Positions 3,903 through 28,698 of a stretch of 52,330 nucleotides of DNA are shown piece after piece. Made by a program: the position numbers and the translations under genes. The notes under the pieces are model-generated. The model saw nothing but the letters and a program-made list of their open reading frames with translations, was not told where the DNA came from and did no database searches. Origin of the DNA: Mycolicibacter heraklionensis (GTDB lineage: Bacteria; Actinomycetota; Actinomycetes; Mycobacteriales; Mycobacteriaceae); contig LZME01000126.1 of assembly GCA_001673575.1 (NCBI GenBank), forward strand, positions 1 to 52,330, read 5' to 3'. How positions within the stretch are numbered: the stretch's first letter is position 1; the number at the start of each line of letters is the position of its first letter.

Positions 3903-3904
3903 GA

Positions 3905-11575: not shown

Positions 11576-12537
11576 TCAGCCGTCATCTGGACCGGTATCG
11601 CTTGTCGCTGCATATCGCCCGTCATCACCCGACGCGTCGGCTTCCGCGATCATGTCCTCCCACGGCCAGCGCAAAGTGGCATAGCGACGGTAGAGAAGCA
11701 GCTGATGGTCGACAACGCGCACACGGCCCTCGGCGTACGAGAGCACCAGCCCTCGGCCTTCGGAGTCAACCTGCAGCCGTTCGATGTTCCCCAATGCCGT
11801 GGTGAGGTTACCCCTCTTGATCCGCTCCTCACGGGCGTGCGCGACGGCGTAGATTTCCTGGTGCGGGATTCCGGCGATCAGTTTTGCGTCCGGCTCGTCG
11901 AGCACCGCCGCCATGGCGTGCGCGTAGATGCCAGTGGCGTTGTTCCGCCGACGAATTCCGCTCGCCACGTTCTGTGCGAACTTCTGGTAGACGGTGTTCA
12001 GTTCTTCGGCGTAGAACAATGCGGCGGCGTCCACGTGGGCGGCATCGTTCACCGATTGCCTCGACAACTTGCGCTCGTAGATTCCGGCGTGGTCCAGCGT
12101 GTCGATGGTGATGCGCTGCAAAATCCCGGCGTTGCCGTAGCTGATGTCGATCAGCTTCTCTCGCACCTCCTGAGACATGGAGATGTGCAGCGCGTCGCAT
12201 CCCTTGTCGAGGATTTTGCCCAAATCGGCCTCTGACCAGGTGATCGACACCTCACGCACACGCCCCGTCAGGTCTGGGTTCAAGTGGAGCAGCAAGTTGT
12301 TATCGCTCCACACGCCGACCACCACGACGTATAGGCCGAGGTCCCACATGGTCTTCAGATCGAAGGCGAATTTCTTGCGCTCTCTCTGGTCGAGGTAGTG
12401 ACGGTACAGCCGGGGAAAGGCGCGGGCCGGGGCCCATCCTTTTGGGCGTTGCCGCGCGACCGCCCCAGCAGGGCGTCACCAGCCGACGCCAGCGCGTCGT
12501 CGTACAGGCTGAACGCAAATCCCTTGACCATACGCAT
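11576..12537 (-). pseudogene. remnant of a P-loop ATPase (C-terminal part, frameshifted)
   Basis: A continuous frame 11576-12349 encodes about 257 residues starting MWDLGLYVVVVGVWSDNN. Read upstream of that ATG the same frame continues with RLYRHYLDQRERKKFAFDLK, the pattern seen after Walker B in STAND/AAA ATPases (RL...LK...L...VVGV), followed by an alpha-helical lid (EADLGKILDKGCDALHIS). No Walker A P-loop is present. A short stretch MVKGFAFSLYDDALASAGD begins at an ATG near 12537 in another frame, so a frameshift near 12400-12430 separates the pieces. I read this as a truncated, decayed gene beside the tRNA. The fragment at the 5' end may be unrelated. Confidence 0.55.
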
Positions 12538-12554
12538 GCTAGAAAGCGTATGCG
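12527..12554 (+). promoter_or_regulatory. cluster motif site 1 (upstream of CruF-like gene)
   Basis: ACCATA (12527-12532), 16-nt spacer, TATGCG (12549-12554). It lies 38 bp upstream of the gene at 12592. Same half-sites and spacer as sites 4, 6 and 7 of the cluster. Probable operator or shared promoter element. Confidence 0.55.
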
Positions 12555-12591
12555 CTCTGCCGGAGGTCATGCGGAGGAGCCGGAGGCGCGT

Positions 12592-13500
12592 ATGAAATCG
12601 ATCAACACACTCGTCGGCGTAGCCTGCGTTGTCTTCATCGGCCTCAGTGGGTGGGCGGTCTCCGTACCTGGAGGTGCGGCGTTACCTCCAGCGGCCCTTC
12701 TGCTCATGGTGGTCGCGCTCGCCGTGTTGTTGATCGGGCACATGTGGATGCATCTGGGGTGGTCGCTGATGGCGGGGTTCGTTGCCGTGGCAGCCGTGGT
12801 CGAGTGGGCGTTCGAGGAAGGCAACATTCAGCTGAACGGCTTCATCTGGGGTGACATCCGGTACGGGAGTATGGCGGTGTTCGGCGTGCACATCGGCAGT
12901 GTGCCTGCGGCGGTCCCCTTCTTGATGGCCGTCATACTCTGGCCCACCTACGCGGCGGTGAACCTCGCCCTGGATGGTCGCGTCGTCGTCGACCCTCGAG
13001 GCATCACGTGGTGGCAGAACCTCTGGCGTTGCGTTCTGTATGGATTCGTCCACTCGTGGATGATGTTGACGTACAACGAACTATGCGAGACGTGGGGCGT
13101 GTATCGGTGGGTGGGCCACTCTACTGAGAGGCCCACCGACGACATGTTCCTCGGCGACCCAGCGGCGCCCGGCGGGTGGTTGAGCTACGTCGTCGTCAGC
13201 ATGCTGCTGTTCGCCGCTCTGTTGGCACATCGGTGGGGACGTGGCGCCGTCGCACGGTCTCTGACGCGGAAGCCGGCGTGGTCGGATGGGGCGCCCATTC
13301 TCTTCTGGACTGTGATCGCGCTGCAGAACTACTTCAATCCCATCAATAACGCCACGGTCGCCAATGTCGCGATGTGGACCATGGGCTTTTTTGCGGCGTT
13401 CGCCGGTTACCGGTTCGTGGACGTCATGCGTACTGCGAAGCGCAGCGACTCCCTGCTGATGGATTCCGCCGGCACCGTCATCGACGGGCAATCACCATGA
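12592..13500 (+). CDS. polytopic membrane protein, CruF/DUF422-like (carotenoid biosynthesis protein-like)
   Basis: 302 residues from the ATG at 12592, with GGAGG 5-9 nt before it. An N-terminal hydrophobic segment (residues 4-24) and at least six further membrane segments are visible. The middle, GFIWGDIRYG...VHIGSVPAAVPFLMAVILWPTYAAVN, resembles the CruF/DUF422 family of carotenoid hydratase-like membrane proteins (G.P.G.Y then a P..YP.Y segment). The later part (LTYNELCETWGVYRW) carries an acidic/Trp motif where that family has its D..W.W block. Similarity is weak, so the reaction is not assigned. It is the first gene of the co-regulated accessory cluster. It could also belong to a family distinct from DUF422. 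Confidence 0.6.
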   Translation: MKSINTLVGVACVVFIGLSGWAVSVPGGAALPPAALLLMVVALAVLLIGHMWMHLGWSLMAGFVAVAAVVEWAFEEGNIQLNGFIWGDIRYGSMAVFGVHIGSVPAAVPFLMAVILWPTYAAVNLALDGRVVVDPRGITWWQNLWRCVLYGFVHSWMMLTYNELCETWGVYRWVGHSTERPTDDMFLGDPAAPGGWLSYVVVSMLLFAALLAHRWGRGAVARSLTRKPAWSDGAPILFWTVIALQNYFNPINNATVANVAMWTMGFFAAFAGYRFVDVMRTAKRSDSLLMDSAGTVIDGQSP

Positions 13501-13510
13501 TGCCATTGGG

Positions 13511-13536
13511 CATACCATAATAAAAAGATGTATGGT
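13511..13536 (+). promoter_or_regulatory. cluster motif site 2 (upstream of first Pfam10118 gene)
   Basis: CATA (13511-13514) then TATGGT (13531-13536) at the 16-nt spacing; a perfect ACCATA also lies nested at 13514-13519, giving an 11-nt spacer. It is 50 bp upstream of the GTG at 13586. TATGGT could itself serve as the -10. Confidence 0.55.
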
Positions 13537-13585
13537 CTAGTGATTAGCGCCACGTGACCGAATGCGCACGACAGGGGGCCCTGCT

Positions 13586-14527
13586 GTGACGGCTGATCTC
13601 ACGGTGCGGCGGGTACGCTTCGACCTCGCCGCAGACGACATTCCGTTCATCTGGCAGCCAGAACGCCCATTGTTCAGCGTGACCACCAACTACATGTCTT
13701 TTATCGCACCGGGTTTCGAGAACATGATCGTCGACGCAACCCGCGAGGCTATACCGCTGATGTCCGATCCCGAAGCGATCGCGGAAGCAAACCTCTTCCT
13801 CCGCCAGGAGGCGCAGCACTCGTCGGCGCACATCCGGCATATCAATGCACTGATTCGTCGCTATCCCGGCCTGCAGGAGACGTTCGACGAGTTGATGGAC
13901 TCGTACAAGCAACTCACCGCCACCAAACCGCTCCTGTGGCGGCTGGCCTACACCGCGGTCCTGGAGAACACCTTCACTCCGTACTTCAGCGTCTACCTGA
14001 ACCACGAGGACAAGTTGTTCCGCCCAGGTGATGATCGGGTGGCGTCGCTGTTCCTTTGGCACTTCTGCGAGGAGATCGAGCATCGCAGTTCGGCAATGGT
14101 GGTCTACAACGCCGTGCACGCCGGTTTCGCCTATCGGCTCAGAGCGATCGCAAGCGTGGTCAAACACATCAGCGCCACCACGGCGATGGTTTCGCGCGGG
14201 TTTCAGGCGCACGTCCCCGCGGAGGAGGGCGGGTGCTACGGGGCACTTCTTCCGGAGGGCATCACGTTCAAGGGGATCGGAGGCGCACGCCGCGCACGGA
14301 AGCGGCTGCGACAGGGCGCCGACCAGGCCATGTGGGCCGGGGTTCCACGGCGGGAGATTCTGACCATGATCGTTGGCCTGATTCGTTCGCAGGGACCGCA
14401 CGCGCTGCACACCGACGAGGACGTGCCGATGTTCGCGCACCAGTGGTTCCGCCGTTACAACGCCGACCCCACCGCTGTGTCGCACTGGTACACCGCCCGA
14501 ACCGATAATCCGATCACGCCGGCGTGA
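13586..14527 (+). CDS. Pfam10118-type predicted metal-dependent hydrolase, copy 1
   Basis: 313 residues from the GTG at 13586 (MTADLTVRRVRFDLAADDIP), chosen because GGGGG precedes it and because it aligns with copy 2 (24133-25053), which opens LTVRRVRFDLAGDDIP. It has a ferritin-like metal-ligand pattern: Glu75-x2-His78 (RQEAQHS), Glu127 (LENTFTPYF), and Glu163-x2-His166 (EEIEHRSS). These are the features of COG3687/Pfam10118, annotated as metal-dependent hydrolases but by fold more like di-iron oxidases. It is 25 bp upstream of the tandem Rieske genes and probably co-transcribed with them. Substrate unknown. Confidence 0.82.
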   Translation: MTADLTVRRVRFDLAADDIPFIWQPERPLFSVTTNYMSFIAPGFENMIVDATREAIPLMSDPEAIAEANLFLRQEAQHSSAHIRHINALIRRYPGLQETFDELMDSYKQLTATKPLLWRLAYTAVLENTFTPYFSVYLNHEDKLFRPGDDRVASLFLWHFCEEIEHRSSAMVVYNAVHAGFAYRLRAIASVVKHISATTAMVSRGFQAHVPAEEGGCYGALLPEGITFKGIGGARRARKRLRQGADQAMWAGVPRREILTMIVGLIRSQGPHALHTDEDVPMFAHQWFRRYNADPTAVSHWYTARTDNPITPA

Positions 14528-14552
14528 CGGTCGACTACCGAAGGAGCACCCC

Positions 14553-15692
14553 ATGCCGCAGCCGGAAGCCGCCGATCTGACCCGGCGAGTGCTCGCCCAT
14601 GTGGATGCGAACACGTTCGACACCGAGAAGGCGGTGTGGTTCGAGCCCGCAGAGGCGTTCGTCAGCCAGAGGCGTCACGATGCCGACGTCGACATGTTGA
14701 AGCGAACACCGCACGTGGTCGGCTGGGCCGGGGAGGTGGCGGAGCCGGGCGAGTTCGTCACCAGGGACGTGCTCGGGGTCCCGATCGTCATAACCCGGAC
14801 CAGAGACCGCGTGTTGCGGGCCTTCGTGAACGTCTGTGCGCATCGGGGCGCCGTTGTGGCCGAAGGCTGCGGCAAAGCGCGTGCGTTCACTTGCAACTAT
14901 CACGGCTGGACGTACGGACTCGATGGACGGCTGACCGGAGCGCCGGACCGCAGGATGTTCGAAGGGGCCCATCTGGAAGAGCGCGGTCTGCGGGAGATCC
15001 CCGTCTCCGAGCGATGCGGGCTCCTCACAGTCGGCCTCGACGCTGCTGTCGACGTCAAGTCTCATCTCGTTGACGTCGAAGATGCGTTGTCGCACTATGA
15101 CTTCGGGAGCCGCCGGCACTATGAGACCCGGCGCTTCGACGTCGCAGCCAACTGGAAGCTCAACCTCGACATCAACTTCGAGGGCTATCACATCAAGTAC
15201 GCGCACTCCGAAACGCTCGCTCCTCTGGTGTTGGACAATTGCGTTGCCGATACGTTCGGGCGACACGCACGCTTCGGTATCCCGTTCCGCCATATCGTCG
15301 ATCTTCGGGATATGCCCGAATCCGACTGGTCTCCCGACTTCCCCGGCATCCTCGCGTGGTTCCTCTTCCCCAGCACCGTGCTCATCGAGGTACCGGGAAG
15401 CGTGCAGATGATCCGCGTGTATCCAGATTCCGGTCCCGATCGCTCGGTCACATATCTGACTCAAGGGGCTCTCGGTGCGGTCGTCAGCGACACGGACCGC
15501 GCGTGGCACACCGGATTGCTGGATGCCAACTGCGAGGTACTGGTCGGAGAGGACATCCCACAGGCGGAGTCGTGTCAGCGTGGGCTCCGCACTGGACTTG
15601 ACCACGTGGTGTTCGGACGTAACGAGCCGCTGCTTCAGCACCTGTCTGCGGCCTGGCTTGAAGCGATCAGCGAGCCGACGGTCTGTGCGTAG
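14553..15692 (+). CDS. Rieske non-heme iron oxygenase alpha subunit, copy 1
   Basis: 379 residues, AAGGAG 6 nt before the ATG. The N-terminal Rieske [2Fe-2S] domain has Cys95-x-His97 (CAHRG) and Cys114-x2-His117 (CNYHGW). The C-terminal SRPBCC catalytic domain has NWKLNLDINFEGYH...H, giving Glu210-x2-His213-x4-His218, the mononuclear iron ligand motif with the bridging acidic residue. It hydroxylates or dioxygenates an organic substrate with O2. No dedicated ferredoxin or reductase lies nearby, so electrons must come from elsewhere. It is about half identical to the next gene by eye; the pair looks like a tandem duplication. Confidence 0.9.
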   Translation: MPQPEAADLTRRVLAHVDANTFDTEKAVWFEPAEAFVSQRRHDADVDMLKRTPHVVGWAGEVAEPGEFVTRDVLGVPIVITRTRDRVLRAFVNVCAHRGAVVAEGCGKARAFTCNYHGWTYGLDGRLTGAPDRRMFEGAHLEERGLREIPVSERCGLLTVGLDAAVDVKSHLVDVEDALSHYDFGSRRHYETRRFDVAANWKLNLDINFEGYHIKYAHSETLAPLVLDNCVADTFGRHARFGIPFRHIVDLRDMPESDWSPDFPGILAWFLFPSTVLIEVPGSVQMIRVYPDSGPDRSVTYLTQGALGAVVSDTDRAWHTGLLDANCEVLVGEDIPQAESCQRGLRTGLDHVVFGRNEPLLQHLSAAWLEAISEPTVCA

Positions 15693-15744
15693 GGCCAGCA
15701 GTCACATTTCGAAATCCGTCTGTCGGTGACCGGAAGGAACGACG

Positions 15745-16893
15745 ATGCCCAGAGCGGAAGCTCTAGACCTGACCCGCCGAGTCCTCAAGCTGATGGACAG
15801 CGACACGCTCGACATCGCCGACGAGGTGTGGGTTGAGCCCAGAGAGGCGTTCGTCGATCGGCGGCGGTTCGAGGCGGAGTTGGCGATGCTGGTGAACGTT
15901 CCTCACGTCATCGGCTGGGCGGGAGAAGTCGCCGACCCCGGTCAGTACACGACCAAGGACGTCATGGGTGTTCCGGTTCTCGTGACGCGGGCTCGGGACG
16001 GCGCGTTGCGCGCGTTCGTGAACGGGTGCGCCCATCGTGGCGCGCAGGTCGCCGCAGACTGCGGAACGACCAGGCTGTTCACCTGCCCCTACCACGGATG
16101 GACCTACGGCCTCGACGGTCGGCTGACCGGGGCACCCGCGAGGAAGATGTTCGCCGGCGCGGCTGAAGGTCGCGGATTGACGCCCTTACCGGTAAGTGAG
16201 GAGGCCGGTCTGATCGTGGTCGGACTGCGGCCGGATGTCTGTGTCCGCAACGTCTTCGGTGAGGTTGGCCAGCATCTGGTCGAGTACGACTTCAGCACCC
16301 GTCACCACGCGGAGACGCGGCGCTTTACTATTGCCGCGAATTGGAAACTGGCTGTGGACGTCAACTTCGAGGGCTATCACTTTCCATTCGTCCACGCCGA
16401 CACTCTGGATCCGATCGCCGTCAACAACTCGGTGTGCGACATTTATGGCCGACACAATCGGTGGGCGTTCCCCTTTCGCGACATTATCGACCTCCGAGAC
16501 GTTCCGGAAGGCGACTGGCCCGACCAGTTCTTCGGCACTGTGGTCTATGGTCTGTTCCCGAGTTGCGTCCTTATCGAGGCCCCCGCCTCGTTTCAGATGT
16601 TACGGGTCTATCCGGGCAACGCCCCTGGTGAAAGCATCGTCGAGGTGACGTACGGGTCGCCTTCTCCGGTCACGACAGAGCAGGACCGCACTTGGTACGC
16701 ACTGCTGATGGATGCCGTGTGCAACGTGTTGTCCAATCAGGACTTTCCCATGGCCGAGGCATGCCAGCGCGGCCTTGAAGGCGGTGTCCCGGAGGTCGTG
16801 TTCGGACGCAACGAGCCGATGCTGCACCATCTCGCAACGGTGTGGCAGCAGGCATTGCACGGTTCCGACGCGCTGCCTGACCACCGGGCTTGA
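15745..16893 (+). CDS. Rieske non-heme iron oxygenase alpha subunit, copy 2
   Basis: 382 residues, GGAAGGA before the ATG. The domain plan is the same as copy 1: Rieske ligands Cys95, His97, Cys114, His117 (CPYHGW) and the iron motif Glu209-x2-His212-x4-His217 (NFEGYHFPFVH). Both copies open with a near-identical N-terminus (LDLTRRVL...VWxEPxEAFV). Differences cluster in the catalytic domain, for example HIKYAHSETL versus HFPFVHADTL, which suggests different substrates, or a hetero-oligomer in which both subunits are active. It is convergent with the acyl-CoA synthetase gene, 58 bp apart. Confidence 0.9.
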   Translation: MPRAEALDLTRRVLKLMDSDTLDIADEVWVEPREAFVDRRRFEAELAMLVNVPHVIGWAGEVADPGQYTTKDVMGVPVLVTRARDGALRAFVNGCAHRGAQVAADCGTTRLFTCPYHGWTYGLDGRLTGAPARKMFAGAAEGRGLTPLPVSEEAGLIVVGLRPDVCVRNVFGEVGQHLVEYDFSTRHHAETRRFTIAANWKLAVDVNFEGYHFPFVHADTLDPIAVNNSVCDIYGRHNRWAFPFRDIIDLRDVPEGDWPDQFFGTVVYGLFPSCVLIEAPASFQMLRVYPGNAPGESIVEVTYGSPSPVTTEQDRTWYALLMDAVCNVLSNQDFPMAEACQRGLEGGVPEVVFGRNEPMLHHLATVWQQALHGSDALPDHRA

Positions 16894-16951
16894 GGGATTC
16901 GCTTCGCCCCGAGTCGATCGGGCAGCTGCAACTCTTCGGCCGACTGACCGC

Positions 16952-18613
16952 CTACTGGTGAGGACCTCCGCTGGCCGCGGCGATCGCTTTGGCCCAGCGG
17001 TAATCGGCCTTGCCGGAGGGGGAGCGCTGCACCTTCGCGCTGCGCAGGATCGCCTTGGGCAGCTTGTACCTGGCCACCGCCCGGCTACAGACCTCGATGA
17101 GTTCCTCGTCGGTCGGTTCGGCGCCCTCGACGAGCTGCACGATGGCCACGACTTCGTTGCCCCATCGCTGCGACGGGCGGCCTGCGACGACGACGTCGTA
17201 GACATCGGGATGTGCGGCCATCGCGGCCTCGATCTCTTCGACGAAGATCTTCTCGCCCCCGGAGTTGATGGTGATCGAATCGCGGCCCAGGAGTTCGATG
17301 GTCCCGCCCGCCAAGACGCGGGCACGGTCACCTGGCACCGACCACCGAACGCCGTCGATCACGGGAAATGTACGCGCTGTCTTGTCCTCGTCGTTCAGAT
17401 ATCCGAGCGGGATGAGATTTCGTCGTGCGAGCCAGCCGGGCCCCTCTCCGGGACCGAGCACTGTCGTGAGTTCCTCACTGATGACGGCGGTTTCGGCGCC
17501 CGGCGTGAACAAGCCGACGTCGACGGGTGCGTTGGCCGTGGAGACCGAACTCATCTGCAGCCCCGACTCCGATGCGCCGGCATTGTCGATGAATACCAGG
17601 TTGGGAAGCTGGGCCGTGAAACGCTGCCGTACCGAGGCGCTCAGGGCCGCGCCACCATTGCTGATCGACATCAGGCCCGACAGGTCGTAATCTCCTCGCT
17701 CGAGCTCGTCGATCAGTGGGCGTGCGATGGCGTCGCCGACGACCGGAATGCTCAGCACGCGTTCCCGCTCGGCCAGCCGCAGGATCTGGTCGGGCCGCAT
17801 CGTCTCGACGTCGTCGGGGAAGGCCACCCAGCCGCCCATCGACATGACCTGGAACGCACCCCACTGGGCGGCGCCGTGCATCAGCGGGGGGACCAGCAGT
17901 ACGGAGGTGAAACCCGGTGCTGCCGTGGCGCGCGCGGCGAGCTCGGCATACGAGGAAAGGGCCTCATCGGTGCCGAAGTTCCTTCCCCCCATGGAGGATA
18001 CGAACACGTCGTGCTGTCGCCACAACACACCTTTGGGCATCCCTGTGGTGCCGCCGGTGTAGAGCAGGAACAGGTCGTCCGGGCTGGGTTCGGGCATGCC
18101 CGAGGCAGGGGCAGGTGTCCCGATGATCGACTCGTAGTCGACCGCTCCTGGCAGCAGCGGTGTGTCGGTGTGGTCGGCAACCTGGATCAGGAACTCGAGC
18201 TCGGGCAGTTGGTCGCGGATCGCGGCGACACGCGGCGCGAACTCCGCGTGGTATACGAGAGCGCGGGCGGACGAATTCTCCAGCAGGTAAACCAGTTCGG
18301 CTTCGACATAGCGGTAGTTCACGTTGAACGGTGCCAGTCGAGCGCGGTAGCTCCCGATCATGGCCTCAAGGTATTCATTTCCGTTACGCAGGTAGAGGCC
18401 GAGGTGATCCTGGCCGGATTCGTGATTGGCCAATTCGGATCGTTCGGTGTGACACCCGAGGCCCAGCGTCGCCAAGTAGTGGGCGACGCCGTCCACCCGC
18501 GAGTTCATCTGCGCGTAGGTGAATTCACGATCCCGCCAGATCAGCGCCCGGTGGTCGGGCAGTGCCGCCGTCAGCGTTTCGAAGACGCCCGAGAGGGTGA
18601 ACTGATGGTCCAT
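16952..18613 (-). CDS. FadD19-type acyl-CoA synthetase
   Basis: ANL-family enzyme that forms an acyl-adenylate and then an acyl-CoA. 553 residues, AGGAG before the ATG. The AMP-binding signature YTGGTTGMPKG is at residues 185-195. The Asp/Arg hinge region is SVPGDRARVL and the catalytic lysine is in SPSGKADYRWAK. The C-terminal pattern (LLGRDSITINSGGEKIFVEEIEAAM) is the one seen in FadD17/FadD19, which in M. tuberculosis activate steroid side chains, so a bulky or branched substrate is likely. An insert of about 15 residues (CHTERSELANHESGQ, near 54-68) lies between two strands where FadD19 has none. Divergent from the monooxygenase gene. Confidence 0.87.
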   Translation of the reverse strand: MDHQFTLSGVFETLTAALPDHRALIWRDREFTYAQMNSRVDGVAHYLATLGLGCHTERSELANHESGQDHLGLYLRNGNEYLEAMIGSYRARLAPFNVNYRYVEAELVYLLENSSARALVYHAEFAPRVAAIRDQLPELEFLIQVADHTDTPLLPGAVDYESIIGTPAPASGMPEPSPDDLFLLYTGGTTGMPKGVLWRQHDVFVSSMGGRNFGTDEALSSYAELAARATAAPGFTSVLLVPPLMHGAAQWGAFQVMSMGGWVAFPDDVETMRPDQILRLAERERVLSIPVVGDAIARPLIDELERGDYDLSGLMSISNGGAALSASVRQRFTAQLPNLVFIDNAGASESGLQMSSVSTANAPVDVGLFTPGAETAVISEELTTVLGPGEGPGWLARRNLIPLGYLNDEDKTARTFPVIDGVRWSVPGDRARVLAGGTIELLGRDSITINSGGEKIFVEEIEAAMAAHPDVYDVVVAGRPSQRWGNEVVAIVQLVEGAEPTDEELIEVCSRAVARYKLPKAILRSAKVQRSPSGKADYRWAKAIAAASGGPHQ

Positions 18614-18738: not shown

Positions 18739-20217
18739 ATGACCCGCTTCGACGCTGTTGTGGTCGGTGCTGGATTCTCCGGAATCGGCGCGGCGATCCA
18801 GCTGAAAAGCTTGGGTTATGAGGATATCCTCGTCATCGAGCGCGAAGACGATCTGGGCGGCACCTGGCACGTCAATCGCTACCCCGGTGCCGCCGTGGAC
18901 ATCATGTCGGCGGCCTATCAATACCATTTCGAGCCGAATCCCACGTGGTCCAGGCTGTACGCGAAGGGCCCGGAGCTTAAGCGCTACGCCGATCATGTGG
19001 CGGACAAGTACGACGTGCGCCGTCACATCAGGTTCGACACATCGGTACTGGGTGCGGTGTGGGATGAGGACGCCGCACTATGGCGTGTCTCGCTGTCGAA
19101 CGACGAGACGGTGGATACCCGATTCCTGGTCAACGCGAGCGGGTTTCTCTCGCAGCGGCATTATCCCGACATCCCCGGCCTCGAGGCCTTTGCGGGTGAG
19201 ATCGTCCACACCACCTGGTGGGACCAGGACAACGACTTCACCGGCCGTCGGATCGCGGTGATCGGCACCGGCGCGACGGCCGTCCAGCTGTTGCCCGAGT
19301 TGGCCAAGCAGGTCGACTACATGACGGTCTACCAGCGCACTCCGATCTGGGTGACGCCGAAGATCGATGTGTCCCTGCCGAAGAACGTCCTGCGCTCGTT
19401 CGCCAGGTTTCCGGCAGCGCACAGGTTCCTGGCGATCATGACGACTCTTCTCTACGATTTCTGCTTGAACACAGGCATTTTGAACTACCGGCGATACCAC
19501 GCGTTGACACGGTTCGTCGAGTATCAGTGCCGGATCCTGATGCTGCTGACGGTGCGCGATCGGAAGGTGCGGCGACAGCTCACTCCCGACTACTCGCTTG
19601 GTTGCAAGCGGCCTGCGGTGTCCAACCTGTACTACCGGACGTTCGCACGTCCCAACGTCCACCTCGAAACTGGTGGGATCGAACGGATAGAGCCGGATGG
19701 CATCGTCGGCCGCAACGGGACGAAGACCCCGATCGACACCCTGGTATTGGCAACGGGCTTCAACGTGTGGGACCACAACTTTCCGGCCTTCGAGACCATA
19801 GGGCGTGGCGGAGTCGATCTGGGAAAGTGGTGGATCGAGCAGAGATACGCTTCTTATCAGGGCATTACGGTGCCGAACTTCCCTAATTACCTCGCGATGA
19901 CGAGCCCTTGGGCCTTCACCGGTTTGTCCTTCTTCAACACCATTGCGGTGCAGATGAAGCACATGAGCCGATTGCTGGGGGAGGTCCGCAAACGCGGCGC
20001 GTCGACATTCGAAGTGACCGATGCTGCCTGTCAGCGCTTCACCGGCCGGATGCGCTCGATGATGGGTCCGACGGTCCTCTACAGCGGGCAGTGCTCCAAC
20101 GCGAACAGCTACTACTTCAACAACGAAGGCGACGCGGCGTGGTTTCGGCCGACGACCCGTCGGAATGCACTGCGCGAGCAAGAGATCTTCCCGCTCACGG
20201 ACTACTCGATCGCGTGA
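18739..20217 (+). CDS. flavin-containing Baeyer-Villiger-type monooxygenase
   Basis: FAD- and NADPH-dependent monooxygenase that would insert oxygen next to a ketone. 492 residues, GGAG 9 nt before the ATG. The FAD dinucleotide motif GAGFSG is at 10-15. The NADPH motif GTGATA is at 176-181. Between them is the Baeyer-Villiger fingerprint F-x-G-x3-HT-x2-WD at residues 151-162 (FAGEIVHTTWWD). The C-terminal half (SPWAFTGLSFFNT, NANSYYFNNEGDAAW) matches mycobacterial BVMOs. A ketone made by the neighbouring dehydrogenase (26067-26828) and an ester cleaved by the esterase (25140-26060) would fit a ring- or chain-cleaving route. Confidence 0.9.
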   Translation: MTRFDAVVVGAGFSGIGAAIQLKSLGYEDILVIEREDDLGGTWHVNRYPGAAVDIMSAAYQYHFEPNPTWSRLYAKGPELKRYADHVADKYDVRRHIRFDTSVLGAVWDEDAALWRVSLSNDETVDTRFLVNASGFLSQRHYPDIPGLEAFAGEIVHTTWWDQDNDFTGRRIAVIGTGATAVQLLPELAKQVDYMTVYQRTPIWVTPKIDVSLPKNVLRSFARFPAAHRFLAIMTTLLYDFCLNTGILNYRRYHALTRFVEYQCRILMLLTVRDRKVRRQLTPDYSLGCKRPAVSNLYYRTFARPNVHLETGGIERIEPDGIVGRNGTKTPIDTLVLATGFNVWDHNFPAFETIGRGGVDLGKWWIEQRYASYQGITVPNFPNYLAMTSPWAFTGLSFFNTIAVQMKHMSRLLGEVRKRGASTFEVTDAACQRFTGRMRSMMGPTVLYSGQCSNANSYYFNNEGDAAWFRPTTRRNALREQEIFPLTDYSIA

Positions 20218-20268
20218 GGCGGTTGCCGAAGAAGGGTGGCGCGGGGTGACCTGCGTCGCCGGTACCGA

Positions 20269-20766
20269 TCAGCCCGAGACGACGTGAGAGCGCCACCACC
20301 TGTTGTTGATCTTGCCCTGTGCCACTATCACCGACGGGCCGACGGTGGTGCCGTTCGCATCGGTTATTGACACCTCGGCATGGGCTGCGTCGACGGTGAT
20401 CAACTCGACCGTGCTGGCACCGGCCGGCGTGCCCACGATGTACCGCGGCCGCCGTTCCAGCCCCGCCGCCCACAGGAAGTGCGCGAAGAGTCGGAGGCCG
20501 GCGGTGGGTTCCGGTGTGGCGGAGCCCCTCGCCCCGCGCCGGTCCAGGTACCAGTCATCGGCCGTCACGCCGTCCGGCAGGAGGTCGAACACCCCGGCTT
20601 CACGGGCGGACCCGGCGACGGTCACTCGGGCTACGGCGTCGGCTCCGAGACCGTGGCGCCGGTCGCACAAGACCTGTACCGAGCGGGCTTCGAGCGAGAG
20701 GGCTGAGGGAGGGTCGAGCAACAGCAGGAAGTCACTGCGCCCTTCGTAGCCCTTGGCGAAATCCAT
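20269..20766 (-). CDS. shortened DapF-like protein lacking the active-site cysteine
   Basis: 165 residues from the ATG at 20766, with GAAGGGA upstream. Residues 1-105 follow the N-lobe of mycobacterial diaminopimelate epimerase: MDFAKGYEGRSDF, LCDRRHGLGADAVARVT and DDWYLDRRG. Where DapF has its catalytic NADGSAAQMCGNG, this protein has ARGSATPEPTAG, so the Cys is gone. After LRLFAHFLWAAGLERR the sequence jumps to a DapF-like C-terminal end (AEVSITDANGTTVGPSVIVAQG...WW). About 120 residues, including the second half-site cysteine, are absent. The frame is intact with normal codon use, so it may be a functional non-catalytic protein rather than a pseudogene. Function unknown. Confidence 0.7.
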   Translation of the reverse strand: MDFAKGYEGRSDFLLLLDPPSALSLEARSVQVLCDRRHGLGADAVARVTVAGSAREAGVFDLLPDGVTADDWYLDRRGARGSATPEPTAGLRLFAHFLWAAGLERRPRYIVGTPAGASTVELITVDAAHAEVSITDANGTTVGPSVIVAQGKINNRWWRSHVVSG

Positions 20767-20889
20767 CCGGAATCCCTTCGTTGCGGCTGGGCCGGCCACG
20801 GGTGGACAAGCACCTGTGACGGTCACTGCCCGCGTGTATCGCATCGGACATCGATGGTGGGTAGTCGATTTCGGGGGCGCAGCTCGCAC

Positions 20890-22047
20890 CTAGTCTCCGG
20901 ACCCTACGGAAAGCCGGGGGCCGGGGCCCGGCGCCCCGACGAGTCTCCCGGTCCCGCGGTATGCCGTGGCCGTCAGAACCGCCGTCAACACCGCGGCGGC
21001 AGCGCCGAACGTCAGCGAGCCGGTTGGGTTGCCCGATGGCGCCACGCCGTCGACCGCATCGAGATAGCCGGGGATGGCTGCGCCCCAGAACAACACGCCG
21101 AATGCGAGGTAGACGGAAACGGTGACCGCTGCGAAACGGTCACCGCGCGCGCCCGCCGGCACGATCGACGGATCGGTGAGTCGTGCGCGGTAGGCACCGT
21201 AGAACGCCCACGCGGTGATGGCGAGGCCAGCGACGATGAAACTCCAGACGCTGATACCACGTGCGGTCAGTGTCGAGAGTCCGATCAGCTCCAGGACCTT
21301 GCCCGGAAGATTCATCAACATGAACAGTGGCCACACCCCGATGCTGACGATGGTGATGTCGCGGGCCAGTCTCCGCCCGCCGCGCCCGGGTGCCCCGGTC
21401 ACCCAGCGAGTGAGCAGTGCAATGCCGAACGGCATCACCAGCGAGAAGGCCTGCAGGCTCAAATAAGGGATCGGACCCATCGATGGCTGCGATGTCGGCA
21501 GATCCTCGTTCCATACCCACCAACCCCACTGTGGGCCAACGGTATCGACCACCTCAAAGAGGCACATGAACACGAACGCGACGCATACCGAACTGATGAA
21601 GGCGTTGTATCGCTTGAGTATTCCCGTGCGCTGTACCAGCACGTAGGCCAGGTACCCGTACACCGGGTAGATCGCGACGATGTACAGCGGCAGCCGGTCG
21701 TAGAGGAACTGAATCGAGAACTGATTGTGGATGAACGTCAGACCCAGGGCATCCTCGAGGCCGAACCACTGCGGGAAGTACGTGATGGGTTCGATGAACA
21801 GCAGCGCGAGGATCAGGGATCCCCAAACGACCAGGTTGGACGAATCGCCCTGGCGGCGGTACCAGCGGATGCCGTGCGCCAGGCAGGCAATGGCGCCCGC
21901 GATCAGGAGCATCTCGATCACGGGGAAGGTCCAGTTCTGCAGACTGAATGGGTTGTGCAGAGTCAGGATGGGATTGGAGTCGCAGCGCACCAGGGGCGCG
22001 TGGACGGCCAGCCGGGCGAACTCCTCGGTGCAGGTCTCCATCGACAT
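20890..22047 (-). CDS. polytopic membrane protein of the accessory cluster (A)
   Basis: 385 residues, GGAGG 5 nt before the ATG. About nine hydrophobic segments span residues 40-360. A central block reads LPLYIVAIYPVYGYLAYVLVQRTG, then FVFMCLFEVVDTVGPQWGWWVWNE, then PYLSLQAFSLVMPFGIALLTRW. The order of a P..YP.Y helix, an acidic residue in the next helix and a W.W motif echoes the CruF-like gene at 12592 and the membrane gene at 22145. I do not recognise a named family. Downstream of motif site 4, 123 bp upstream of the DapF-like gene. Confidence 0.75.
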   Translation of the reverse strand: MSMETCTEEFARLAVHAPLVRCDSNPILTLHNPFSLQNWTFPVIEMLLIAGAIACLAHGIRWYRRQGDSSNLVVWGSLILALLFIEPITYFPQWFGLEDALGLTFIHNQFSIQFLYDRLPLYIVAIYPVYGYLAYVLVQRTGILKRYNAFISSVCVAFVFMCLFEVVDTVGPQWGWWVWNEDLPTSQPSMGPIPYLSLQAFSLVMPFGIALLTRWVTGAPGRGGRRLARDITIVSIGVWPLFMLMNLPGKVLELIGLSTLTARGISVWSFIVAGLAITAWAFYGAYRARLTDPSIVPAGARGDRFAAVTVSVYLAFGVLFWGAAIPGYLDAVDGVAPSGNPTGSLTFGAAAAVLTAVLTATAYRGTGRLVGAPGPGPRLSVGSGD

Positions 22048-22081
22048 CGTGTCCTCCGGTCGATCGTCTCAGCTCTGGAAC

Positions 22082-22109
22082 ACCATGCGTAGTGACGAGA
22101 TCGTATGAT
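22082..22109 (-). promoter_or_regulatory. cluster motif site 4 (upstream of membrane gene A)
   Basis: ACCATG (22082-22087), 16-nt spacer, TATGAT (22104-22109). It is 35 bp upstream of the start at 22047. One mismatch in each half-site relative to the consensus. Confidence 0.5.
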
Positions 22110-22144
22110 CGATCGATCCCGTGGTCCGCGAGTTCGCCGAATCG

Positions 22145-23161
22145 TCAGGGCAGCGCATCCGACACGACGTCCTCGTGGGTTGTCTCCGGTGCCGGCACTC
22201 GGCGCGCCCACAACTGGAAGGTGGCCATCGCGACCACCCCGACGAGGCCCAAGGCCTGCACCACGACGTAGAGCGACACCGTGCCGTCGCGCATGACGTT
22301 GGCGATGATCATCGCGCCGAACGCCACTACGTAGAGTGCGATCCATGCCGAGAGCAGCCCATCGGGCCGACCGGAAGGCGGTGTCGCGGAACGCAGTGCG
22401 CTGATCGTGATGACGGCGAAAACCGTGACCAGCACGACCATGAACGGCCACTGGCGGCCGACCAGGAATGTCCAAATGGTCAGCGGTGACAGCAACAAGG
22501 TTCCGATGACGAGCACACTGACAGCACGCACGGGCGCCTCCACACCGAATGCGCGCCCCGCCGTCCAACGTTCTCCGACAGCACCGTCCACGCGGCTTCG
22601 TGCACCGAGCATCAAGTAGTAAAAGACCATGCCCCACACGGCCTGCCACGCCATGTCGACCAGTGGCCAGCCCAGCCAGTACTGGAACAGCGAGAAGTCG
22701 GCGCGCCACGTCCACCAGACGACGTGGCGAAGGTTGCCCTCAATGATGTACGGCGCGTCGAGCAAGATCATGAACATGCCGCCGGCAACCGCGGCCTTCC
22801 ATCGGGTGGCGATTCCCAGCGCCTCGATGACCTTGAAGCCCACCGAGAAGATCACCGGATAGAAGAGGGTGACGTACAACGGCATCGCCGTCGTCCCCTC
22901 GAACAGGGGAAGGACGGGAAAGTTCAGCATGACCAGGAAGTCGCCCTGCTGGTACATGTTGAGCGTGGCCATGCCGGCCAGTTCCAGCACGACCCCGTAG
23001 AACAGCGCCGCCACCAGAACGAACGCGTACATGCGCACACCGCGGCGGAACTCGATAACGGCGTTGATGACCGCGCTGACGAAGAGGACGAAGACCAGGG
23101 AGTCGTAGACGATGGTCTGCCACGGCAACTGCGCCGGATTGTTGATGATCAGGAAATTCAT
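22145..23161 (-). CDS. polytopic membrane protein of the accessory cluster (B)
   Basis: 338 residues with about eight membrane segments and a short cytoplasmic tail. The central part reads GTTAMPLYVTLFYPVIFSVG, then MFMILLDAPYIIEGNL, then VVWWTWRADF and YWLGWPLVDMAWQAVWGMVFYYLML. The layout of P..YP helix, acidic residue, W.W, and a final Pro-containing helix parallels membrane gene A and the CruF-like gene, so the three may be distant paralogues. No named family recognised. Downstream of TetR on the same strand with 205 bp between them; that gap contains motif site 5. Confidence 0.75.
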   Translation of the reverse strand: MNFLIINNPAQLPWQTIVYDSLVFVLFVSAVINAVIEFRRGVRMYAFVLVAALFYGVVLELAGMATLNMYQQGDFLVMLNFPVLPLFEGTTAMPLYVTLFYPVIFSVGFKVIEALGIATRWKAAVAGGMFMILLDAPYIIEGNLRHVVWWTWRADFSLFQYWLGWPLVDMAWQAVWGMVFYYLMLGARSRVDGAVGERWTAGRAFGVEAPVRAVSVLVIGTLLLSPLTIWTFLVGRQWPFMVVLVTVFAVITISALRSATPPSGRPDGLLSAWIALYVVAFGAMIIANVMRDGTVSLYVVVQALGLVGVVAMATFQLWARRVPAPETTHEDVVSDALP

Positions 23162-23229
23162 GCGTGCGCGAGCCTTTCCGCATCCGTCACCTCGGCCGGC
23201 GGTCGCCCTGTACCGGTCGCCTCCTCATG

Positions 23230-23251
23230 ACCATACACAATCGCGTATGTG
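23230..23251 (-). promoter_or_regulatory. cluster motif site 5 (upstream of membrane gene B)
   Basis: ACCATA (23230-23235) and TATGTG (23246-23251), 10-nt spacer; the inner CATAC/GTATG halves are perfect. It is 69 bp upstream of the start at 23161. Spacing differs from the 16-nt sites, so the site may be read through one half only. Confidence 0.45.
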
Positions 23252-23366
23252 TAGACCTAGTGTCGCGGACAGGGGAATTGATGGCACGAGGGAACGCCGT
23301 AAGGACGCCGGGCGTCAGCGAGATCTGTCCCGCATCATCGGCCCCGGCGCCTACGGTGCGGGCCGT

Positions 23367-24038
23367 CTAGGAAGCCGTCCGGCGTCGTGGCCGTCGCGGT
23401 GCGGTGATCTTCGTCAGAGAGTCCATGGCGCCGGCGAAGCGTGGATAGATGATCGCCGGGCCGAGCCACCGCGCCAGGTACTCACGAAGTTTCGCGGGAT
23501 CGCGCGGCGCATGGCCGCGGTCGATGACGAACGAGTGCAGTATGCGCAGGCAGAACTCCGCGAGTTCGTCGAGTGCGGCCGCGTCGAAACCGTTTTCCTC
23601 CCAATCGACCTCGAACCGATGAAGCATTGATCGGCCGAACGCCAGCGCGGTGTCGGACGTGATGGATGCGGAGATGCCACCCAGGGTTCGCGTCGTCAGC
23701 ATGGCGCGGATCTGTTCGTCCTCACCGATCTGTTCGATGCCGAAGGCGACGCCCTCGACCATGGCGGCTACCGGATCGGTGATGCCGCGGACACGGGTGG
23801 CGAGCTGTTCCAGGAATCCGTTTCCAGAACGCATCGCCGTGCCCAGGAGAAGTGCGTCGGTACTGGGAAAGTAGCGGTAGACAGTCTGTCTCGTGACGCC
23901 GAGTGTTCGCGCGACGTCCGCGATCCGCATGCTGGTGCCGCGTTCGGCGATGATGTCATCAGCCGCGTTCAGGATCCGGTCGATCGCCTCCTCGTCGGAT
24001 GCGGGCGTATTTCCCGACCAGCCATGACTACGAACCAC
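23367..24038 (-). CDS. TetR/AcrR-family regulator
   Basis: 223 residues from a GTG with AGGTGAG upstream. The N-terminal helix-turn-helix is at about residues 22-60 (MRIADVARTLGVTRQTVYRYFPSTDALL); the rest is a helical ligand-binding domain. It is the only regulator inside the accessory cluster and therefore the best candidate to bind the ACCATA/TATGGT sites. I see no copy of that motif in its own upstream gap (24039-24132), so it may not be autoregulated through it. The C-terminus is basic (TAPRRPRRRTAS). Confidence 0.88.
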   Translation of the reverse strand: MVRSHGWSGNTPASDEEAIDRILNAADDIIAERGTSMRIADVARTLGVTRQTVYRYFPSTDALLLGTAMRSGNGFLEQLATRVRGITDPVAAMVEGVAFGIEQIGEDEQIRAMLTTRTLGGISASITSDTALAFGRSMLHRFEVDWEENGFDAAALDELAEFCLRILHSFVIDRGHAPRDPAKLREYLARWLGPAIIYPRFAGAMDSLTKITAPRRPRRRTAS

Positions 24039-24132
24039 GACTCACCTCACCGCGCCGGCCTTGCATGCCGCAATCATATCCGTGTGCTGTCGGCAGTCGC
24101 GGCTTCACACCCCAACGGTCTCGCTGATTCCG

Positions 24133-25053
24133 TCAGGCTTGGGCACCCACGCTGTACCAGCGTGCGGCGCTCTTGGGTTCCTCGCCGTAGCGGCGGAACC
24201 ACTTGCCGGCGAAGGCCGGCAGTTTTTCATGGGCGGGGTCGTGGCCAGGACCCTGTGAGCGGATCAGACCGATGATCATGCCGATCAGCTCGCGGCGGGA
24301 AACGCCGGCGTAAATACCCTGCCCCGGCCGCTGTAGTCGCCTGGCATCCTTCATCTGCGCGCGGATTGCGGCAAGCGACAGCCCGTCTGGCAGCAAGCGT
24401 GCGAACTCGCCGCCCTCCTCCGCTGGAACGTGCGCGAGGAAACCGTTGCGGATGATCGCCACGATCTCGCCGAGATGCTTGACTACGCCGGGAATGGCCC
24501 GAAGGCGATAGGAGTAGCTGGGATGAATGGCGTTGTAGATCGTCAACGCAGAACTCCGGTGCTCGATCTCCTCGACAAAGTGCCACAGAAACAGTGAGGC
24601 GACGCGCTCGTCGCCGGGCTCGAAGAGTAGGTCCTCGTGGTCGAGAAACACCTTGAAGTACGGGGTGAAGGTGTTCTCGACGACTGCGGTGTACGCCAGC
24701 CGCCACACCAACGGCTTGGTGGCGGTGAGGCGATCGTAGGAGGCGACGACTTGGTCCATGGTTTCCTGCAGTCCAGGCCACCTCCTGCAGAGTGCGTTGA
24801 TGTGGCGGACGTGCGCTGCCGAGTGCTGGGCCTCCTGACGGAGGAAGTCGTTGGCCTCGTCGGCGACAGCGGGATCGGCGATCAAGGGCATGGCCTCGCG
24901 GGTCGCATCCACAATGAGCTTCTCGAAACCCGGAGCGAAGAACGACACCACGTTGTTGTGCATGCTGAAGGCGGGACGCTCGGGTTGCCAGTTGAAGGGA
25001 ATGTCATCGCCGGCCAGGTCGAACCTCACGCGACGTACCGTCAGGTTGCTCAT
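24133..25053 (-). CDS. Pfam10118-type predicted metal-dependent hydrolase, copy 2
   Basis: 306 residues from the ATG at 25053 (MSNLTVRRVRFDLAGDDIPF); an ATG five codons earlier is less likely because motif site 6 lies there. The same ligand pattern as copy 1 is present: FLRQEAQHS, VENTFTPYF and EEIEHRSS. The two copies are roughly 60% identical by eye and flank the cluster on opposite strands. Differences are concentrated in the C-terminal third. The second copy may act on a different intermediate, or the two may form a heterodimer. Confidence 0.82.
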   Translation of the reverse strand: MSNLTVRRVRFDLAGDDIPFNWQPERPAFSMHNNVVSFFAPGFEKLIVDATREAMPLIADPAVADEANDFLRQEAQHSAAHVRHINALCRRWPGLQETMDQVVASYDRLTATKPLVWRLAYTAVVENTFTPYFKVFLDHEDLLFEPGDERVASLFLWHFVEEIEHRSSALTIYNAIHPSYSYRLRAIPGVVKHLGEIVAIIRNGFLAHVPAEEGGEFARLLPDGLSLAAIRAQMKDARRLQRPGQGIYAGVSRRELIGMIIGLIRSQGPGHDPAHEKLPAFAGKWFRRYGEEPKSAARWYSVGAQA

Positions 25054-25059
25054 GAAATG

Positions 25060-25087
25060 ACCATACACCCATGATCTAGCGTATGGC
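25060..25087 (-). promoter_or_regulatory. cluster motif site 6 (upstream of second Pfam10118 gene)
   Basis: ACCATA (25060-25065), 16-nt spacer, TATGGC (25082-25087). It ends only 7 bp before the start codon at 25053. If TATGGT on the minus strand (25065-25060) is the -10, the transcript would be leaderless or nearly so. Confidence 0.55.
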
Positions 25088-25139
25088 CATGGTTGAGGTT
25101 ATGCCCTGAGGCGGAACCGGCGTCGGCAGCCGACGGCGG

Positions 25140-26060
25140 TTACGCGTTGAGTGCGCAGCGCAGACCGTTGCACAGACTCGCGAAGAATGCCGCGGACACC
25201 GGTGCGTTAGGGGCGAACTGGTCGAACGCGTGGAAGGCGCCCTCGGCTATCTCCTCGTGGACCTTGATGCCCGCCGCGCGGAGGCGCGCTGCGTATTCCC
25301 GGCACTCCTCGTAGAAGAGGTCGAGGGTGCCGACACCGATCCACGCCGCGGGTAGGCCGGACAGATCGGCGCGCCGTGCAGGCACTGCCCCGATCGGGTC
25401 GGCACCGTTGAGGTACCAATCCCACGCGCGTTGGTTGTCGCTCTCCGACCACATGATTCGCCGGCGGCCGTCGCCGCTTCGTCCCGTGCGATCATCCAAC
25501 ATCGGGTAGACGAGCAGCTGGTAGATCGGCTGAGCGGGGCCGCGATCGTAGGCGATCTGCGCCACCGCGGCCGCGAAGTGCCCACCGGCGCTGGCTCCGC
25601 CGACGGCGAGGCGTGACGAGTCGGCCCACGGCTGCTCGGCGAGCCATTGGAAGGCCGTGTGGCAGTCGTTCACCGGTGCCGGGTAGGGGTGCTCGGGGGC
25701 CAACCGGTGTTCGACCGCTGCGACCGCTACGCCGGAGAGGTGCGCCAGTTTCCGGCAGTAGCGGTCGTCTTGAGCCGCGGTGCCCATCACTGTGCCGCCG
25801 CCATGAATCCACAGCAGCGCGGGAGCCGATTCGGGTAGTGCGGCGGGCCTGTGGAGGCGGACTGTGACGTTCTCGTCCACTCGGTGGACCGGTACCGTGC
25901 GGTCGCGGGCGAGCCTGCCGAGGGCGTTCATCACCGCGCGTTGAGGTCGCAATCCCAGCCGCAGCGCGTAGCCGCGCGGGAGCATGCGAGCTATCCGGCG
26001 GAGGTCCGGGTCGAGAGATTCCGTCGATGTGAACGCGTTGCGGCGAGAGGCCTCGGTCAT
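25140..26060 (-). CDS. HSL-family alpha/beta hydrolase (esterase/lipase)
   Basis: 306 residues, AAGGGG directly before the ATG. The oxyanion motif HGGG is at 86-89. The catalytic triad is visible: Ser157 in GGASAGG, Asp247 in VGTLDLFY, and His277 in GAFHAFDQF. These are features of the hormone-sensitive lipase group that includes mycobacterial LipN/LipU-type esterases. It starts 6 bp after the dehydrogenase stop, so the two are one operon. In this context it could hydrolyse the ester or lactone made by the Baeyer-Villiger enzyme; this is inference. Confidence 0.88.
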   Translation of the reverse strand: MTEASRRNAFTSTESLDPDLRRIARMLPRGYALRLGLRPQRAVMNALGRLARDRTVPVHRVDENVTVRLHRPAALPESAPALLWIHGGGTVMGTAAQDDRYCRKLAHLSGVAVAAVEHRLAPEHPYPAPVNDCHTAFQWLAEQPWADSSRLAVGGASAGGHFAAAVAQIAYDRGPAQPIYQLLVYPMLDDRTGRSGDGRRRIMWSESDNQRAWDWYLNGADPIGAVPARRADLSGLPAAWIGVGTLDLFYEECREYAARLRAAGIKVHEEIAEGAFHAFDQFAPNAPVSAAFFASLCNGLRCALNA

Positions 26061-26066
26061 CCCCTT

Positions 26067-26828
26067 CTAGTCCACCTCGACGGCGCTGAAATCCTTGTGG
26101 CCCAAACCGGCTACCGTGCCGCCGTCAACCACGAACTCCGAACCCGTCGAGTAGCTGGACTCGTCGCTGGCGAGGTAGAGGACCAGACTGGACACCTCGC
26201 GCGGCTCGGCGGCCCTGCCCAGCGCGGTCTGGAACAGATCGTCTGGGACGAAGTCGGTCATCGGGGTCTTGATCAGACCGGGGTGCACTGAATTGACCCG
26301 AATTCCGAACGGGCCCAACTCCAAGGCGACCGACTTCGTCAGTCCGCGCACGGCGAACTTGGAGGCGGTGTACCCGTGGCACGCCATAGTGCCGGCAAGT
26401 CCCTCGATCGACGAGATGTTGATAATGGATCCGCGACCGCGTTCCTTCATCGGTGGGGTGACGGCGCGAATCCCGAGGTAGACGCCCGTGAGGTTGACGT
26501 CGATGATGCGTTGCCACTCGGAGATCGGGTAGTCCTCGATGAGCCCGAAGTTGAGGATGCCGGCGTTGTTCACCAGGACGTCGACCGAGCCGAACTCGCC
26601 GAGGGTTGCAGCTACTGCGGCATCCCACTGTTCTGGATCGGTGACGTCGAGGTGCACGTACCGGGCTGCGCCGCCGAGGTCGTCCGCCACCTGCTTGCCC
26701 TCGTCGTCGAGCACATCGCCGATAACGACCTGAGCGCCCTCGGCGACGAGTTCTCGCGCATGCGAGGCGCCCATTCCACGTGCGCCACCGCTGACGAGTG
26801 CGACCTTTCCTGAAAGACGTTTTGGCAC
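26067..26828 (-). CDS. short-chain dehydrogenase, FabG3 (Rv2002)-like
   Basis: 253 residues from a GTG (MPKRLSGKVALVSGGARGMG), AAGGAG 7 nt before it; the longer upstream reading frame lacks a better start. The Rossmann motif SGGARGMG is at 13-20, NNAG at 87-90, and the active site has Ser139/Ser140, Tyr153 and Lys157 (YTASK). The sequence tracks M. tuberculosis Rv2002, a 3-alpha/20-beta-hydroxysteroid dehydrogenase, through to GGTVAGLGHKDF. A hydroxysteroid or other secondary alcohol is therefore a plausible substrate. Motif site 7 lies 70 bp upstream. Confidence 0.9.
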   Translation of the reverse strand: MPKRLSGKVALVSGGARGMGASHARELVAEGAQVVIGDVLDDEGKQVADDLGGAARYVHLDVTDPEQWDAAVAATLGEFGSVDVLVNNAGILNFGLIEDYPISEWQRIIDVNLTGVYLGIRAVTPPMKERGRGSIINISSIEGLAGTMACHGYTASKFAVRGLTKSVALELGPFGIRVNSVHPGLIKTPMTDFVPDDLFQTALGRAAEPREVSSLVLYLASDESSYSTGSEFVVDGGTVAGLGHKDFSAVEVD

Positions 26829-26897
26829 GTGGCTTCTCCTTAGTCGTTGGGGGCGGGCCGTGTGTGCGTCGGCGGTAGGAGAGTCCGCCACAGCCAC

Positions 26898-26925
26898 ACC
26901 ATACATACTGACCGATTCGTATGGT
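26898..26925 (-). promoter_or_regulatory. cluster motif site 7 (between dehydrogenase and fadD8)
   Basis: Perfect ACCATA (26898-26903) and TATGGT (26920-26925), 16-nt spacer, in the 275-bp divergent gap between 26828 and 27104. It is nearer the dehydrogenase; fadD8 begins 178 bp away and may have its own promoter. Confidence 0.6.
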
Positions 26926-28696: not shown

Positions 28697-28698
28697 GA

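Follow-up and report, generated by a model that had tools for sequence, protein, structure and literature searches.

Closest described systems and the locus under study

In Mycobacterium tuberculosis, the Rv3160c–Rv3161c system consists of a TetR repressor and the putative oxygenase that it controls (PMC7810876), and a motif survey of mycobacterial TetR-family regulators reports palindromes that MEME detected upstream of divergent TetRs (PMC4482099). For AmtR of Corynebacterium glutamicum, half-site spacing is crucial, and TetR and AmtR have a common core half-site with one spacer base different (PMC2723105). Here we analyse a 52,330-nt stretch of Mycolicibacter heraklionensis contig LZME01000126.1 (hereafter the window; host genome 4.72 Mb), in which inverted repeats with the consensus ACCATAC-N14-GTATGGT accompany seven promoters of an accessory metabolic gene cluster. 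Comparative analyses suggest, with a probability of about 0.85, that the TetR-family regulator encoded in the cluster itself (23367–24038, minus strand) uses these seven sites as its operators and would repress the units of the cluster, including its own gene. Among the results listed for the open-licence PMC literature, we found no description of this operator or of this TetR subfamily.

Seven operator-like sites in the cluster

The initial annotation had described seven inverted ACCATA...TATGGT sites in the cluster, and all seven are found at its coordinates. Its half-sites are literal at three of them (13514, 18656 and 26898) and approximate at the other four: one arm deviates at 12527 (TATGCG), 23230 (TATGTG) and 25060 (TATGGC), and both arms at 22082 (ACCATG...TATGAT). 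Exact ACCATA...TATGGT pairs with spacers of 8–18 occur three times in the window and never in 100 shuffles. We count the spacer between the heptamers ACCATAC and GTATGGT, so that 14 corresponds to a spacer of 16 between the hexamers. The 16-nt hexamer spacer that had been proposed for four sites is confirmed and extends to five spacer-14 dyads (12527, 13509, 22082, 25060 and 26898). The additional one is the site placed at 13511, which had been described as having CATA at the main spacing and which, read from 13509 to 13536, forms a spacer-14 dyad.

Operator 1 (12527–12554), with a strong left arm (TGACCATACG) and a weak right arm, lies 37 bp upstream of the membrane-protein gene TM1, and operator 2 (13509–13536; GGCATAC-N14-GTATGGT) lies 25 bp upstream of MH1, in front of MH1-RHO1-RHO2. 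Operator 3 (18652–18679) occupies the gap between the divergent AMP-binding ligase and flavin monooxygenase (FMO) genes; its right arm is strong, whereas the left arm can be placed at either spacer 10 or spacer 14. Operator 4 (22082–22109) is located 34 bp upstream of the membrane-protein gene at 20890–22047. Operator 5 (23230–23251), 68 bp upstream of TM2, has one perfect arm (TGACCATACA), the other being off-spacing or degraded. Operator 6 (25060–25087), to which the matrix assigns the highest dyad score in the window, precedes MH2 and thus the MH2-tetR pair by 6 bp, and operator 7 (26898–26925), an exact ACCATAC-N14-GTATGGT, lies 69 bp upstream of the short-chain dehydrogenase (SDR) gene of the SDR-esterase unit and 178 bp from FadD8. 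On the present gene models, these distances of 6–69 bp to the nearest start agree with the 7–70 bp given initially, and all seven sites fall within the non-coding 8.1% of 12442–27003. This placement rests on the starts chosen for TM1 (12592) and MH2 (25053); the longer open reading frames (ORFs; starts 12442 and 25068) would make sites 12527 and 25060 overlap a coding frame.

A half-site matrix trained on 64 spacer-14 dyads of other genomes, none from the window's genome, singles out the same sites. The eight best half-sites of the window all lie inside the seven sites, and its seven best spacer-14 dyads are exactly these sites (31.6, 27.0, 17.2, 17.2, 15.1, 13.2 and 11.5 bits), while the maximum spacer-14 scores of 25 Markov-simulated windows range from −2.2 to 15.4 bits (second highest 10.7). 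Genome-wide, 7 of the 11 distinct places matching ACCATR-N9..15-GTATG are the cluster sites; with at most two mismatches at spacer 14, five of seven places lie in the cluster (three for the reversed-pattern control); and exact ACCATA-N10..16-TATGGT occurs four times, i.e. three times in the cluster and once on contig C36. By the initial annotation, a motif equally common at unrelated genes would have counted against the regulon; the motif is rare elsewhere in the genome and nearly confined to this cluster.

Sites 18656 and 23230 are less regular than the others. The former scores almost equally at spacers 10 (15.7 bits) and 14 (15.1 bits), and the latter scores higher at spacer 8 (18.8 bits) than at spacer 14 (11.5 bits). 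If the TetR tolerated short spacers, both could be full operators as spaced, and their short-spacer scores do beat the maxima of 24 and 25 of the 25 simulated windows, respectively (highest 16.8 bits). However, among dyads of at least 12/14 in the loci of 22 relatives, spacers 8–12 have three matches in total versus 37 at spacer 14, and both sites remain among the window's best seven at spacer 14, which makes such tolerance rather doubtful. Nor are the 12- and 10-nt hexamer spacers, given earlier for these two sites, characteristic of the family, where the heptamers are 13–16 apart and the distance is constant within most clades. The two sites are better read as weaker sites with one strong arm and a degraded second arm, and we are less confident of them than of the other five. 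Two spacer-14 dyads lie upstream of a TM2 homologue (53%) in locus L147.

Conservation of the operator in relatives

We compared two sets of loci, partly from the same genomes: the 80 best loci by TetR match (the best-80 set) and 22 loci fetched separately. In the best-80 set, dyads of at least 13/14 number 24 at spacer 14 versus four over all other spacers of 0–40, and those of at least 12/14 number 36 at spacer 14 versus at most four at any other spacer. The core ATAC-N14-GTAT is found 33 times in this set, the same core with spacer 7 is found 13 times and every other spacer of 2–30 at most six times. The 22-locus set has 30 dyads at spacer 14 versus four (two for the everted-arm control), or 26 versus four without L143, L147 and L148, which rank lower in the TetR list and were chosen when their exact dyads were already known. 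It also includes L061 and L062, the two retained from the first 20 fetched loci, the rest of which (TetR identity 62–65% or below) had few dyads. A spacer-14 dyad of at least 12/14 is present in 19 of the 22 loci.

In the relatives, the dyads are placed between the FMO and MH2-tetR genes and before esterase-Rieske genes, and the species that bear them include M. triplex, M. asiaticum, M. gordonae, M. setense, M. barrassiae and M. novocastrense. The sites recur in orthologous clusters, and their recurrence at both MH2-tetR and esterase-Rieske genes supports the single regulon that had been proposed. The same proposal exempted tetR alone. Our results suggest instead that tetR probably belongs to the regulon, because MH2, the conserved partner gene immediately upstream of tetR, forms with it a conserved gene pair with an operator in front. 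In L131, L140 and L148, where no MH2 match was found, a dyad lies directly upstream of tetR, and tetR itself would thus be under the operator there.

The cluster TetR as candidate binder

The cluster TetR contains a TetR_N domain (PF00440, 45.9 bits versus a cut-off of 24) with the recognition helix LGVTRQTVYRYFP. Its AlphaFold2 (AF2) model has ten helices, and the 50 listed of its 58 Protein Data Bank matches at E ≤ 0.001 are TetR-family regulators. Its assignment as the binder, as first suggested, is supported by comparison: a spacer-14 dyad is found in the scanned upstream stretch of 20 of the 22 members of its clade (none in the other two). Of 346 genomes of the genus, 31 contain exact ACCATAC-N13/14-GTATGGT, at 35 places altogether (one for the reversed control), and for 27 of these 35 dyads a subfamily tetR (43–72% identity class) is found no more than 3 kb away (hand tally). 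Among the remaining eight, four flank Rieske genes (G132 C2, G106, G252 and G241, with that of G252 at a contig end), two lie ∼0.5 kb before FMO genes (G265 and G166) and two flank neither (G195 and G087). Read across 73 sites, the extended half-site is TGACMATACR, with conservation of bases outside the selected core (R at 99% just inside the arm; G at 65% and T at 62% just outside).

Alternatively, TATGGT could be a −10 promoter element and its ACCATA partner fortuitous, as the initial annotation also considered. The hexamer is compatible with a loose TANNNT −10 element, and the closeness of site 25060 to the MH2 start (6 bp) would suit the −10 position of a leaderless transcript. However, both arms are symmetrically conserved at a preferred spacer, the spacer tracks the TetR clade (see below) and most exact dyads lie near a family tetR. 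On these grounds, we reject the −10 element as highly improbable.

Spacer length among paralogous TetRs

For 176 TetRs of the subfamily, we determined the best dyad within 1.6 kb upstream, with spacers of 8–20 and a threshold of 17 bits. The threshold is reached by 106 of them versus 4 of 528 shuffled stretches, none of these four at spacers 13–16. The spacers of the 106 are 14 (57 stretches), 16 (26), 15 (9), 13 (4), 9 (7) and 19 (3). A test of spacer labels was confined to spacers 13–16, with spacers 9 and 19 excluded, and to TetRs containing RQTVYRYF[PG]; after removal of the short row L017, it comprises 175 rows, 95 of them labelled. Without the helix requirement, 116 loci are found (107 with RQTVYRYF, eight with RQTIYRYF and one with neither). 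The last nine are outside the test; the eight RQTIYRYF loci are best at spacer 14, and L320, with neither helix, has spacer 16.

Spacer length follows TetR clade. Besides the window clade, spacer 14 is found in all 14 members of the Rieske-divergent clade; spacer 16 in 25 of the 29 members of the C139 clade (the other four also have 16, below threshold); spacer 15 in seven of the ten members of a further clade (one has 16 and two have none); and spacer 13 in the three-member C36 clade. One close TetR pair is split between spacers 13 and 14. On an IQ-TREE phylogeny of the 95 labelled proteins, seven spacer changes suffice, while shuffled labels require 35 on average and at least 29. The recognition helix is almost unchanged (LGVTRQTVYRYF versus LGVIRQTVYRYF in the spacer-16 set), and the window's genome itself holds spacers 13, 14 and 16. 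A spacer-16 pattern, TCATAC-N16-GTATGA, occurs at 27 places in 23 of 248 genomes (three for the reversed control); 19 of these places are within 130 bp of a C139-type tetR and eight are not.

These comparisons leave us evenly divided on whether one mycobacterial TetR subfamily, with a shared helix RQT[VI]YRYF and nearly the same half-site, separates its regulons by spacers of 14, 13, 15 or 16. If it does, what distinguishes the parallel oxygenase regulons of one genome could be how the bound dimers are arranged and not which bases they contact, a proposition for which we see even odds. A different explanation is that the cluster operators are read mainly by another TetR of the subfamily (from C36 or C139), or by several jointly, and not specifically by the cluster TetR. 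The nearly identical recognition helices of the paralogues, the shared half-site and the orphan dyads without a nearby tetR in other genomes are consistent with this. However, the dyads beside the paralogues have spacers of 13 (C36) and 16 (C139), the spacer is largely clade-specific and the good dyads of the cluster have spacer 14, matching the clade of its own TetR. We consider such reading by paralogues quite unlikely and retain the cluster TetR as the probable binder.

Several observations weigh against assigning the seven sites to the cluster TetR with a clade-specific spacing. (i) Near-copies inflate the contrast between spacers and clades, and inherited promoters would also yield clade-sorted spacers; inheritance alone is insufficient, however, because unrelated promoters of one window-clade regulon share spacer 14. 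(ii) Sites 18656 and 23230 fit the clade spacing poorly. (iii) No strict dyad was found in L138, L142 and L146 of the 22-locus set. (iv) When the best-80 set is split into groups A (16 loci) and B (64 loci), a division made with the dyads in view, group B (TetR identity 53–67%, same helix) has just four ATAC-N14-GTAT; L167, L181 and L211, which belong to this group, do have an MH2 homologue, and many group-B TetRs (L164–L200) have an asymmetric ATCATAC-N14-GTCYGGY-like relative 110–155 bp upstream of tetR. (v) For eight of the exact dyads, no family tetR was found in the vicinity. (vi) The window's genome encodes three more subfamily TetRs at E ≤ 1e-40 (two on C36 and one on C139), and cross-binding is possible since two of them have dyads, of spacers 13 and 16. 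(vii) The AF2 model is modest (predicted local distance difference test, pLDDT, 75.6; template modelling scores to the matches, 0.27–0.43).

Spacer 7 was rejected as an operator spacing of group B. Its 64 loci contain 12 ATAC-N7-GTAT matches, ten at 5–8.5 kb downstream and two at 1.3–2.1 kb upstream of tetR; these pairs are not taken as operators because they lie kilobases from tetR and mostly in near-identical sequence.

Further features were seen beside the paralogues. On contig C36 of the window's genome (G000), an exact spacer-13 dyad separates a paralogous tetR (G000:C36:6543-7189; L059) from a divergently oriented Rieske oxygenase gene; the C36 copy of the motif lies in a ∼110-bp gap that is flanked by the match to a paralogous tetR on one side and that to a Rieske gene on the other. 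On contig C139 (8680–9326; L060), a paralogous tetR is divergent from a PF10118 gene and a membrane-protein gene, with a spacer-16 dyad. All 11 loci in the set of close C139 orthologues have a spacer-16 ATAC/GTAT pair, and its distance does not vary among them. A different palindrome, ATAC-N8-GTAT (e.g. TATACCCCGTAGGGTATA), lies 40–42 bp past the stop of the C139-type tetR in all 11 loci L297–L307, and is perhaps a terminator hairpin. A second spacer-16 dyad (G155:C1:1978795-1978822) lies ∼0.7 kb from a C139-type tetR, on its downstream side.

Cluster genes and genomic setting

The plus strand of the cluster carries TM1 (12592–13500, a membrane protein by sequence with no Pfam family), MH1 (13562–14527, PF10118), the Rieske oxygenase alpha subunits RHO1 (14553–15692) and RHO2 (15745–16893), and an FMO-like flavin monooxygenase (18739–20217). 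The minus strand carries the AMP-binding ligase (16952–18613), a membrane protein by sequence (20890–22047, with a weak DUF7802 match below the cut-off), the membrane protein TM2 (22145–23161, likewise by sequence), tetR, MH2 (24133–25053, a PF10118 predicted metal-dependent hydrolase), an alpha/beta hydrolase of hormone-sensitive lipase type, i.e. the esterase (25140–26060), and the SDR (26067–26828, start set from the hidden Markov model match). Directly downstream of the gene at 20890, an ORF (20269–20889, minus strand) has a weak DAP-epimerase match (23.8 bits versus a cut-off of 34.7). The island enzymes score below the listed NCBIfam equivalog cut-offs. Family knowledge suggests that the combination of hydroxylases, a dehydrogenase, a Baeyer-Villiger-like oxygenase, an esterase and a CoA ligase serves the breakdown of an alicyclic or terpenoid-like compound.

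These genes form an accessory island (11486–27003) without counterpart in the collinear stretch of a close relative, G022. The latter is collinear with window positions 1–11485 and 27004–29901 (91–95% in long blocks) and has 0.9 kb in place of the island. FadD8 (27104) was rejected as an island gene, as it is collinear with its right-hand neighbour in G022; of 37 genomes searched, 21 have a match to it at E ≤ 1e-200, and these are 21 of the 23 that belong to the genus. Site 26898 would thus mainly serve the SDR-esterase unit. A plasmid origin is unsupported: of 72,556 plasmid records, one matches the TetR at E ≤ 1e-20, with 47% identity.

Another genome also has such genes beside aceE, as in the window (L230; G132:C2, ∼1–10 kb): one for a membrane protein and one for a Rieske protein, together with two operator-like dyads. 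No subfamily tetR was found within the 20-kb locus. The aceE neighbourhood is possibly an integration hotspot, with control in trans at L230.

Proposed mechanism

TetR homodimers would recognize the half-site TGACMATACR. Two such half-sites, with their centres 21 bp or two helical turns apart, would form an operator of 28–32 bp over or near each promoter. In the absence of inducer, TetR would most likely cover the promoter region of each unit and thereby repress TM1, MH1-RHO1-RHO2, the ligase, FMO and membrane-protein genes, MH2-tetR and SDR-esterase; its release may be triggered by a compound of the oxygenase pathway, either a substrate or an intermediate. Arms 21 bp apart are wide for a single TetR dimer, so that two dimers side by side, as in QacR, are the likely geometry, judged from operator length alone. 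A change of 1–3 bp in the spacer would then alter the contact between dimers. We infer binding, repression, a ligand and two dimers per operator. The analysis supplies a defined operator, and a regulon that can be tested, for a TetR subfamily that is widespread in mycobacteria and whose genes often neighbour those of Rieske oxygenases, flavin monooxygenases or PF10118 proteins. If true, the spacing code would show how duplicated repressors with a nearly unchanged recognition helix avoid cross-talk.

Comparison with known systems

KstR-type motifs are short, near-contiguous palindromes, whereas the arms of the window operator are 14 bp apart. The KstR, KstR2 and BkaR regulons resemble the window cluster in that mycobacterial TetR repressors control catabolic genes through palindromic operators (named in PMC4482099; see also PMC3068626 and PMC3920632). 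Their operators differ in sequence from those of the window. QacR is a multidrug-efflux regulator. In Staphylococcus aureus, it binds as a tetramer to a 28-bp palindrome, equal in length to the window operator (PMC4482099).

Rv3160c shares with the window a mycobacterial TetR and an oxygenase gene; it is reported to bind inverted repeats together with the −10 region, with regulator and target in one operon (PMC7810876). In contrast to ACCATAC-N14-GTATGGT at seven promoters, the inverted repeats there measure 12 bp and 8 bp and lie within 50 bp of a single promoter sequence. The AmtR case is a comparison of two proteins, whereas here spacers of 13–16 sort paralogue clades within one genus, as seen by comparison only. 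Taken together, the sequence comparisons suggest that the window holds a TetR-controlled catabolic regulon of an already known type, with clade-specific spacing as the new part.

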